Of a DNA stretch of 64,000 nt, positions 50,495 to 53,877 are shown one piece after another. Under the pieces are notes generated by a model. The model was not told where the DNA came from. It saw nothing but the letters and a program-made list of their open reading frames with translations, and did no database searches. Every line of letters begins with the position of its first letter. The first letter of the stretch is position 1. The DNA is from Thiohalorhabdus sp. Cl-TMA (lineage in GTDB: Bacteria > Pseudomonadota > Gammaproteobacteria > Thiohalorhabdales > Thiohalorhabdaceae): the NCBI RefSeq assembly GCF_041821045.1, contig NZ_JBGUAW010000004.1, positions 124,001 through 188,000 on the forward strand, given 5' to 3'. The position numbers and the translations under genes are program-made.

Positions 50495-52315
50495 TCAGGC
50501 CTGTCGGGCGGGGCGCAGGAGCAGGAAGACCAGCCAGAGCAGGAAGCCCCAGACCAGCACGTTCAGGACCGTGTCCAGGACGCGCTCGAAGGCCGCTCCT
50601 CCGGTCCGGGTCTCTCCGCCCGACAGGGACCACGGAGAGGGCAGCACGGGATCCGGCAGCTCCTTGACCGTGCTCGCGGCCACCAGCCCGTCCACCTCCG
50701 CCTCGGAGAGCGGTAGGCCGGCGGTGCGCAGAGCCGCCGCGGGCCCGCCCACCCGGGCGGCGCCGCCGTCCTGGGGCGCCGGTCCCGCTACCACCACCTG
50801 GGAGCCCACCGTCTCCACCGGATCGGGCTGATGCGGATAACTGCCCGCCGGAATCCGGGTGGCTCGCAAATAAGGCAGTACCATTCCGCGCCGCCCCCCG
50901 GGCCGGTCGTCCAGCGCCTGGAAGTGCAGGTCCGGAAACCGGGCCAGGGCCTCCGCAAATTCGGGATCCGGGACTTCCGTGAGCACCAGCACCCCGTCCA
51001 GCCGCCCTTCCCGAAGGCCCCGGAGCAGCTCCCGGGGCTGCCCGTGCCGGGCGGGCTTCTTCCCGGCCAGCTCCAGGATGTCCGTCGCCACCCGCGCCGC
51101 GCCGCTTCCCGACGGTAGGACGCCGATTCGCCCCGCGAGCGGCTGGGCATCATGCCGTTGCCTGCGCACCAGATGGATGGTCCGCGTGCCCACCACGGCC
51201 ACCGCCTCGGCACGCTGATCGCGCTCGGGGCTTTCCCCGCCGCCGGTGAAGAACCGCTCACCGCCGAGCACGGCCAGCCGCGCCCCGCCATCGGCCAGCA
51301 GGCCGATGGGATCCGCGCCCTCCACCACGGTCACCGAGCGCTGCGGAAAGGCCTGACGCACGGCCCGTAATGCCCGGTTGGTCTCGGCGCTCAGGCGGTC
51401 CCCCTCGTGGGCGGCCAGAAAGAGCTCCGCCTCCCGGGCGGTTTCGCCGCCTTCCTTGATGAGGCCGGCGGTGCGCAGGAAATCGGCGGCCACGGCGGCG
51501 GGCGCCTGCCCCTCCATCTGCGCCCGGCCGTTCAGACGCCGCATGGTGGCGGTATCCAGCCGGTCCTGGAGCTTGGCCACCAGCCCTTCCAGCTGCGGAT
51601 AGCGGGAGACGGCGTCCGCCCGGGCCACTACCCCGCCCTGATAGGGCGGGAAGAAATCCAGGGGGTCCTCCAGGGCACGGAGCCGCCGGCCCGCCAGGGC
51701 CCCGTCGGTGGCGTAGGCCACGGCGGCGTCCGCCCGGCCGGTCAGCACCGCCTCGTAGCGCTCCGCCGGCTGATCGAACAGCAAGGGCGGCTCCGCCAGC
51801 CGTAGCCCGTAGCGGCGCAGCAGGGGGAACAGCCCGTCCCCGGGCCGGCGGGCGTACACCGAGGGCGTGGCGATGCGCAGACCGCCTTCCAGCCGGCTCA
51901 GGTCACTGATGGCGCGCAAGTCCAGGGAGGCCGCCCGGGCGGTGGGGACCACCATCTCGTAGGAATTGTCGAAGCCCAGATCGCCCAGCCAGCGCATGCC
52001 CAGGCCCTCGTACAGCGCACGCTGGTCCCCGGGCGCATCACCGGCCGCCGCCAACCCCCCGAGCACCGAGGCGGTCCCCGAGTACTCCACCATCACATCC
52101 ACCTGCCCCCGCCGCATGGCCTGCTGGCAGCCGTAGGTGTCCTGGCACTCCACCAGAATGGCGCGCATGCCTTCGCTCCGCGCCAGCTCGGCCAGCATGT
52201 GGGCAAGGATCAGCTGCTCCTCGAAATCCTTGGCGCCTACGCGCAACGGGCCCTGGGGGCCGCTGCAGCCGACACCCAGGATGACGACCAGAAAAGCGGC
52301 GATCAGGCCTCGCAT
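50495..52315 (-). CDS. Lipoprotein with fused OpuAC- and TAXI-like binding domains and C-terminal membrane helix
   Basis: A 606-residue protein. Its signal peptide ends in a lipobox (LVVILGVGC). Residues ~25-290 match the OpuAC/ProX/OpuCC betaine-choline binding family: VGAKDFEEQLILAHMLAEL, VMVEYSGTA, DGLFPLLRRYGL and MRRLNGRAQMEGQAPAAVAADFL. Residues ~310-560 look like a TAXI-type TRAP solute receptor: LAGRIGVLPSGSGAARVATDILELAG, LREGRLDGVLVLTEVP and TRIPAGSYPHQPDPVETVGSQVV. A single hydrophobic helix (VLVWGFLLWLVFLLL) ends the protein. Its ATG overlaps the BCCT carrier's stop by one base (TGATG), so translation is coupled. No ABC or TRAP permease is nearby. Each domain is fairly secure; the fusion and partner are unusual. 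Confidence 0.75.
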   Translation of the reverse strand: MRGLIAAFLVVILGVGCSGPQGPLRVGAKDFEEQLILAHMLAELARSEGMRAILVECQDTYGCQQAMRRGQVDVMVEYSGTASVLGGLAAAGDAPGDQRALYEGLGMRWLGDLGFDNSYEMVVPTARAASLDLRAISDLSRLEGGLRIATPSVYARRPGDGLFPLLRRYGLRLAEPPLLFDQPAERYEAVLTGRADAAVAYATDGALAGRRLRALEDPLDFFPPYQGGVVARADAVSRYPQLEGLVAKLQDRLDTATMRRLNGRAQMEGQAPAAVAADFLRTAGLIKEGGETAREAELFLAAHEGDRLSAETNRALRAVRQAFPQRSVTVVEGADPIGLLADGGARLAVLGGERFFTGGGESPERDQRAEAVAVVGTRTIHLVRRQRHDAQPLAGRIGVLPSGSGAARVATDILELAGKKPARHGQPRELLRGLREGRLDGVLVLTEVPDPEFAEALARFPDLHFQALDDRPGGRRGMVLPYLRATRIPAGSYPHQPDPVETVGSQVVVAGPAPQDGGAARVGGPAAALRTAGLPLSEAEVDGLVAASTVKELPDPVLPSPWSLSGGETRTGGAAFERVLDTVLNVLVWGFLLWLVFLLLRPARQA

Positions 52316-53877
52316 CAGGCGCCCTCCTCCGGAATGGCGCTCCCATCTGGCGGCCCGCTCTCCGGCAGCCCCCTGCGCGGGAATTCGATGGCCAGACCCC
52401 GCACCAGGGCCACTACCTGCAGGAGCAGGATGAGGATGAAGGGAATGGCGCCGCTGATGGAAACGGCCCGCAAGGCGTGCACGTTGCCGGACAGCAGCAG
52501 CGCGGCGCCCAATGCCCCGAGGCCGAAGCCCCAGGCCAGCTGACGCCGGATGGAGGGGTCCGGGCTGCCGCCGCTGGTGAGCATGCCGAGCACGAAGGTG
52601 GCGCTGTTAAGGCTGGTCACCAGGAAGATGAAGGCCAGGAGCACCGCCGTCACCCCAAGCAGGGTGGGCGCCGGCAACCGGTCGAAGAGGGCGAACAGGG
52701 CCGCGGTTACGTCCTCGCGCACCAGCCGCTCCATGCCCCCGGCGCCGTACAGCTCCTCGTGGATGGCGGTGCCGCCGAACACCACGAACCACAGCAGCGA
52801 GAACACCGCGGGCACGAAGAGGACGCCGAGAACGAACTCGCGGATGGTGCGTCCCTTGCTGACCCGGGCGATGAACACGCCCACGAAGGGGGCCCAGGCG
52901 ATCCACCAGACGAAGTTGGTGAGCGTCCAGGTCTCCAGCCACTGGCTCGGCCATTCACCGGGCTTCTCGTAGGGGAAAAGCTGCAGGGAGAGGGTCACGA
53001 GGCTGCTCAGGTAGTCGCCCACGGCGGTGAACAGACCCCGGAGCAGGAAGGCCGTGGGCCCCACCACCAGCAGGAACAGCACCAGGGCCACGGCCACCAG
53101 CATGTTGAGGTTGGACAGCCACTTGATGCCCTTGTCGAGCCCGGTGATGGCCGAGGAGAGGTAGGTGACCACCAGGACACCGAGTATGGCGAAGGCCCAG
53201 GCGGCGGAATGCAGCGGCACCCCCGCCACCGCGTGCAGCCCGGCCTGGAGCTGCATGACCCCGGTGCCGGTGGACCCCGCCACGCCGAAGGCTACCGCCA
53301 GCACCGCCACCAGATCGGCCATCCAGGCTACCGGCCCCACCCAGCGGCCACGGAATATATGCCGGATGGGCGTACCGGCCAGATGGGGCGCACCGAACCG
53401 GAAACCGAAATAGGCCAGCACCAGGCCGCTCAGACAATAGACGCCCCAGGCATGCAGGCCCCAGTGGAACAGGGTGTAGACGGTGGCCCGCCGGGCGGCC
53501 TCGCCGGTTCCACCCTCCCCCAGCGGCGGCGCGGAGAAGTGGTTCACCGGCTCGGCCACCCCCCAGAAAAGCAGCCCGACGCCCATGCCGGCGGCGAAGA
53601 GCATGGAAAGCCAGGACGCCGTGGAGAACTCCGGCTCGTCGTTCCCCCGGCCCAGCTTCACCGAGCCGTAGCGGCCGAATCCCAGCCACAGAGAGAGCAG
53701 CACGAAGCCGGAGGTGGTGGCCAGAAAGAACCAGTCCAGCCCCCGGAAGGCAGTGCTCACCAAATACCTGGCCCAGGCCTCGAGCAGGGTCGGGGACACC
53801 AGGCCCAGCACCGCCACCAGGGCACACAGCGGCAGGGCAACGTAAAAGAGGTCGGGACGCGGGAAGCGGGCGCGCAT
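52315..53877 (-). CDS. BCCT-family betaine/carnitine/choline transporter
   Basis: A 520-residue secondary carrier with 12 membrane helices. Motifs are GMGVGLLFWGVAEPVNHF, the WTLTNFVWWIAWAPFVGVFIARVSKGRTIREF segment (the last ~25 residues contain the conserved tryptophan box) and LNMLVAVALVLFLLVVGP. It probably imports betaine with sodium or protons as an osmoprotectant. It shares a coupled operon with the double binding-domain lipoprotein downstream. The C-terminus lacks a long regulatory tail. Confidence 0.93.
   Translation of the reverse strand: MRARFPRPDLFYVALPLCALVAVLGLVSPTLLEAWARYLVSTAFRGLDWFFLATTSGFVLLSLWLGFGRYGSVKLGRGNDEPEFSTASWLSMLFAAGMGVGLLFWGVAEPVNHFSAPPLGEGGTGEAARRATVYTLFHWGLHAWGVYCLSGLVLAYFGFRFGAPHLAGTPIRHIFRGRWVGPVAWMADLVAVLAVAFGVAGSTGTGVMQLQAGLHAVAGVPLHSAAWAFAILGVLVVTYLSSAITGLDKGIKWLSNLNMLVAVALVLFLLVVGPTAFLLRGLFTAVGDYLSSLVTLSLQLFPYEKPGEWPSQWLETWTLTNFVWWIAWAPFVGVFIARVSKGRTIREFVLGVLFVPAVFSLLWFVVFGGTAIHEELYGAGGMERLVREDVTAALFALFDRLPAPTLLGVTAVLLAFIFLVTSLNSATFVLGMLTSGGSPDPSIRRQLAWGFGLGALGAALLLSGNVHALRAVSISGAIPFILILLLQVVALVRGLAIEFPRRGLPESGPPDGSAIPEEGA

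Follow-up and report, generated by a model that had tools for sequence, protein, structure and literature searches.

A BCCT carrier gene consistently paired with a gene for an OpuAC-TAXI fusion lipoprotein, a candidate binding-protein-assisted osmolyte transporter

To our knowledge, the BCCT carriers characterised so far work without a binding protein, and the locus described here raises the question of why the gene for a member of this family overlaps the gene for a large, membrane-anchored binding lipoprotein. The locus lies within a 64-kb stretch of DNA that was analysed as a whole and is referred to below as the window. An ORF of 520 aa on the minus strand (52315..53877) encodes a BCCT-family carrier, and directly after it, on the same strand, an ORF of 606 aa (50495..52315) encodes a lipid-anchored fusion of an OpuAC domain, a TAXI domain, and a transmembrane helix. 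The two ORFs overlap, as a preliminary description of this DNA had reported, and do so by 1 nt; in the sequence TGATG a single base is common to the BCCT stop codon and the fusion start codon, and a GGAGG lies just upstream. The G+C content of the pair is 70.8%, as compared to 65.6% for its flanks. Homologues of ABC permeases or ATPases were not found within the 64-kb window, and a search of the whole genome with PF06808 gave no match to a TRAP DctM gene. The earlier statement that no ABC or TRAP permease is nearby therefore extends, for DctM, to the entire genome, which excludes a TRAP partner for the fusion protein.

The fusion protein carries anchors at both of its ends. At the N terminus, a signal peptide with a lipobox (LGVG-C17; codons 1-17 and part of 18, 52263..52315, minus strand) was recognised from the sequence, and Cys17 is invariant among the aligned family members. 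At the other end, a predicted membrane helix (residues ∼572-601, 50513..50602, minus strand) is followed by a short Arg-containing tail. The AlphaFold2 model of the full fusion (mean pLDDT 80) consists of two globular domains followed by a helix at the C terminus (residues 572-600). The Kyte-Doolittle maximum (2.4, at residues 582-600) marks the most hydrophobic stretch of the protein and falls inside this model helix. The helix is kept in full-length family members, and W594, L598, and R601 in its region are conserved.

Between the two anchors, both of the binding domains named in the preliminary description were recovered by profile searches. The first, an OpuAC/ProX betaine-binding domain (residues ∼23-281, 51472..52249, minus strand), matches PF04069 with an E value of 7e-42 at residues 23-281, covering profile positions 2-256 of 257, and the corresponding Pfam match is present in 11/11 scanned family members. 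When the modelled first domain was submitted to Foldseek, the best matches were OpuAC-type proteins (E 1e-25, TM-score to target 0.88), consistent with the profile result. A Pfam LysR_substrate match below the cut-off was rejected as a shared-fold echo of OpuAC.

The second domain (residues ∼289-563, 50627..51451, minus strand) is of the TAXI, or NMT1_3, type. The NCBIfam model TRAP_TAXI (TIGR02122) matches the window protein at residues 366-510 with an E value of 4e-7, at a score of 29.3 that lies below the model cut-off of 84.35; it also matches 7 of 11 family members, the best with an E value of 8e-17, and Pfam NMT1_3 reaches 3e-14 in other members. The assignment is firm because a profile built from the TAXI part of 10 family members matches the solved TAXI proteins 1us4 and 8u79 at E 2e-14. 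The domain modelled alone (pLDDT 83, pTM 0.81) points the same way, as VIA-align ranked six TAXI structures highest (Z 17-20), with the next best at 12. With phmmer, residues 379-496 weakly matched a phosphatase group (2p9z, E about 0.003-0.03); these matches were rejected, since both profile and fold indicate TAXI.

The ligand site of the OpuAC domain was mapped by alignment to OpuCC and AfProX. We take the betaine contacts of AfProX to be K13, Y63, T66, Y111, R149, Y190, and Y214, of which K13, T66, and R149 hold the ligand carboxylate; the list reportedly goes back to Schiefner et al. 2004. All seven positions are kept in the window protein. Y78, Y119, Y201, and Y225 align with the four cage tyrosines, and K29, T81, and R157 with K13, T66, and R149, respectively. 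Among 12 members, K29, Y78, T81, Y119, R157, and Y225 are invariant, and the position of Y201 is occupied by Tyr, Phe, or Leu. The predicted betaine pocket of the OpuAC domain is, by this alignment, intact and suited to the class of solute predicted for the carrier.

The pocket of the TAXI domain is different. The glutamate-contact residues of VcGluP are Y45, Q93, and E125 (PMC11574862). By alignment to 1us4, the counterparts of Q93 and E125 in the window domain are Gly and Arg and are variable in relatives, and no YYP motif was seen at the start of the domain. Relatives show near-complete conservation of a GS pair, a His, a Tyr, and a Pro-Leu-Arg segment. Because the glutamate-contact residues are not kept, the TAXI domain would either bind something else or serve as a structural dock; it keeps the fold and may not act as a second receptor for betaine.

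The carrier itself matches PF02028 (E 2e-159) over profile positions 1-482 of 485, and its closest solved relatives are TmaT, BetT, and BetP. We take the aromatic box of BetP to be W189/W194/Y197/W373/W374/W377, and counterparts of these residues are kept in the window BCCT. The motifs HWGLHAWGVY, WWIAW, and GMGVG preserve the aromatic box, the TM8 WWxxW, and the GMGxG, and the box and the WWxxW are kept in nearly all BCCTs linked to a fusion gene. An aromatic box together with GMGxG is typical of Na+/betaine carriers, and ion-coupled uptake of a quaternary ammonium compound is predicted. BetP carries its own sensor in its C-terminal tail; the window BCCT has short N- and C-terminal tails, the latter not strongly basic.

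The preliminary description had called for a survey of genomes for recurrence of the pair. A scan of genome contigs with the single window protein recovered no relatives, and a five-member alignment was needed before the contig scan did so. The fusion was absent from the same-genus genomes searched, and among 369 sampled genomes of the class only the window's own fusion was found, so the family is rare. A sample of the phylum yielded a full-length relative of 33% identity in a different class, whose gene lies directly between a BCCT gene upstream and a Usp gene downstream. In all, 15 further non-redundant fusion loci were collected from Alpha- and Gammaproteobacteria, 14 of them full-length and one truncated where its contig ends. 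They include plasmids of Martelella and Paracoccus, Roseovarius, several assemblies of Hyphomicrobiales and Rhodobacteraceae, and the gammaproteobacterium Thiohalocapsa halophila. A BCCT gene lies immediately upstream on the same strand in 15/15 of these loci, and thus in 16/16 with the window, always in the same order and at a spacing of -4 to about +47 nt. None of the 15 contains an ABC permease, and nowhere was the fusion paired with an ABC or TRAP permease. As a control, 70 ordinary OpuAC loci from the same scan were inspected; ABC permease and ATPase genes flank the OpuAC gene in 70/70 and a BCCT gene in 0/70 (Fisher 6e-17 for fusion loci versus ordinary OpuAC loci, relatedness not corrected). 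Annotations list the fusion-type binding protein as part of an ABC system.

A Usp gene lies immediately downstream of the fusion gene in 10 of the 15 further loci (L033, L034, L035, L036, L038, L039, L040, L045, L046, and L047; confirmed with Pfam for three) and is absent from this position in the window itself, which suggests that Usp is an optional regulatory third member. Two loci have peculiarities of their own. On plasmid IV of Paracoccus aminovorans (L038, 6395-7971), the BCCT before an intact fusion is split over two frames and is missing from the gene table. An alphaproteobacterial-type BCCT-fusion-Usp operon occurs in a contig labelled as the Gram-positive Oceanobacillus (L041, WNWL01000005.1); the contig matches contig C727 of genome G750, so the label or the assembly looks mixed.

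The histories of the two genes are also consistent with a unit. In a tree of 34 BCCTs, all linked ones fall in one subclade with 100/100 support, in which the window BCCT joins that of L043 on long branches. Pairwise distances of BCCTs and fusions are correlated (Mantel r 0.92, p 0.0001, n 12), as shared vertical descent would likewise produce. The subclade also holds three BCCTs with no adjacent fusion (L128, L129, and L137). In the TM8 region of these three, VVSA stands where (A/S)DSG is usual, a change that may affect ion coupling. The genes on either side of the pair, one DUF2062-like and one YqhA-like, are 79 bp apart in the same-genus genome G001 (L156, 3627-3706), with tRNA-Ala and gltX beyond them, and exactly the BCCT and fusion genes are missing. 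The pair was probably gained as a unit, with loss in G001 as the alternative.

We are highly confident that the carrier and the fusion protein form a functional unit, a conclusion accepted by both of the roles that the preliminary description had offered for the fusion, namely assistance of uptake or gating of the carrier. The pairing was borne out by the 16 loci, and neither of the results that would have refuted the preliminary reading, a single binding domain or a usual pairing with ABC or TRAP permeases, was obtained. Of the two roles, our current hypothesis leans toward uptake. According to this hypothesis, which we hold to be slightly better than an even bet, the pair is a binding-protein-assisted Na+/betaine symporter, in which the OpuAC domain would capture the solute, the BCCT would receive it, and the TAXI domain and helix would hold the receptor on the carrier. 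The solute imported by the two proteins would be glycine betaine itself or another, related zwitterionic osmolyte of the quaternary ammonium or sulfonium kind. With the N-terminal lipid and the C-terminal helix tethering the lipoprotein to the membrane, its OpuAC domain would catch solute beside the opening that the co-expressed BCCT presents to the periplasm. The TAXI-like domain would be nearest the membrane helix, and its most likely role is to dock on the carrier or to sense a second ligand. We infer that the proteins are in contact and that substrate is handed over, after which the Na+-type BCCT would import it by the usual LeuT-fold alternating access. In many relatives, the cytoplasmic Usp encoded by the third gene probably tunes the carrier. 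Assisted uptake is favored because the predicted OpuAC pocket is intact and matches the substrate class of the carrier. The independence of characterised BCCT carriers from binding proteins, the absence of the glutamate contacts from the TAXI domain, the hint of regulation given by Usp, and the three BCCTs of the subclade that lack a fusion count against delivery.

A less probable alternative, though one that deserves serious consideration, is that the fusion is a sensor in the periplasm and acts through its membrane helix to open or close the BCCT, with no hand-over of substrate. The OpuAC domain would then sense external betaine, the TAXI domain a second signal, and Usp would add an intracellular input. 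A doubly anchored chain with two different receptor domains would suit such a device, as would the conservation of the C-terminal membrane helix in full-length members, and the short, not strongly basic tail of the linked BCCT may mean that it lacks a BetP-type sensor of its own. The recurrence of Usp as third gene in 10 loci fits as well, since TeaD, also a Usp, is a reported regulator of TeaABC; the title of Schweikhard et al. 2010 (cited in PMC9453808) states that TeaD regulates this ectoine transporter. However, the fusion has no signalling domain, its cytoplasmic part amounts to only a few residues, and an intact betaine cage of the carrier's substrate class is what delivery would need.

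It is improbable that the fusion instead serves another permease in trans, such as a ProVWX-type ABC system encoded elsewhere, with its adjacency to the BCCT reflecting co-regulation only. The genome does hold an ordinary ATPase-permease-OpuAC operon with a BCCT gene downstream on contig C1, but that system already has its own OpuAC protein. Because this is the only other OpuAC protein of the genome and it sits in a complete ABC operon, an ABC partner in trans is unlikely; the invariant BCCT pairing, the overlapping or nearly overlapping genes, the co-diversification, and the empty site speak against it as well. The contig C1 locus (70000-84000, L150) was considered as a second case of an OpuAC gene beside a BCCT gene and rejected, as it is a ProVWX-type ABC betaine operon behind which lies another, unrelated BCCT gene. 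The latter matches the profile in two pieces (76324-77361 and 77411-77761), so this gene may be interrupted. Finally, that two unrelated osmolyte genes merely travel together, as the G+C content of a cassette that looks horizontally acquired might suggest, is refuted for all practical purposes by the locus survey, in which order and strand are shared over two classes and ordinary OpuAC loci differ so sharply, and we give it next to no weight.

Each part of the pair resembles components of known systems. OpuBC, OpuCC, and AfProX share the fold and ligand-contact residues of the window OpuAC domain but serve ABC permeases, whereas the fusion has none near it and carries an extra domain and a membrane helix. 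The TAXI-TRAP binding proteins VcGluP and TtGluBP share the fold of the window TAXI domain; however, the window genome lacks a TRAP membrane component and the VcGluP Q93 and E125 positions are not kept. BetP, BetT, and TmaT have the carrier family, aromatic box, and GMGxG in common with the window BCCT but act alone, whereas the latter is coupled to a binding lipoprotein. The TeaABC-TeaD ectoine TRAP system combines an osmolyte carrier, a binding protein, and a Usp gene alongside, as do the Usp-bearing relatives; it relies on TRAP membrane parts where a BCCT is found here, and the window has no Usp downstream.

A search of the literature, mostly open-access, found no description of a BCCT with a TAXI protein, an OpuAC protein, Usp, or a binding protein. 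The closest precedent is TAXI-GltS of Bordetella pertussis (BP0403/BP0402; Jaques et al. 2025, PMC12344293), proposed as a new binding-protein-dependent secondary transporter. Both systems have a lipid-anchored, enlarged TAXI protein whose gene overlaps that of a Na+ symporter, in TAXI-GltS with translational coupling, and both lack a TRAP membrane part. The window fusion adds an OpuAC domain and a C-terminal membrane helix, its TAXI domain is without the key glutamate residues, and its likely substrate is betaine. The carriers differ too, GltS being a member of the ESS family that is modelled as an elevator and the BCCT having the LeuT fold. Until TAXI-GltS was described, soluble binding proteins were known among secondary transporters only for the TRAP and TTT types, all accepted binding-protein-dependent secondary transporters are, or are modelled as, elevators, and further classes would test the need for that mechanism (PMC12344293). 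BCCTs move by a bundle-hash rock (PMC10862720), and this difference from the accepted carriers counts against delivery. That the pair is the first binding-protein-dependent transporter whose carrier has the LeuT fold and a rocking bundle, and that an elevator is not required, is a tentative proposal to which we assign a little less than an even chance. If delivery is correct, the pair adds an unrecognised, predicted high-affinity route of osmolyte uptake in marine and halophilic Proteobacteria. The genes for carrier and binding protein are coupled in a conserved manner here, as a unit of BCCT and binding protein, and next to TAXI-GltS this unit provides a direct test case for the elevator requirement.
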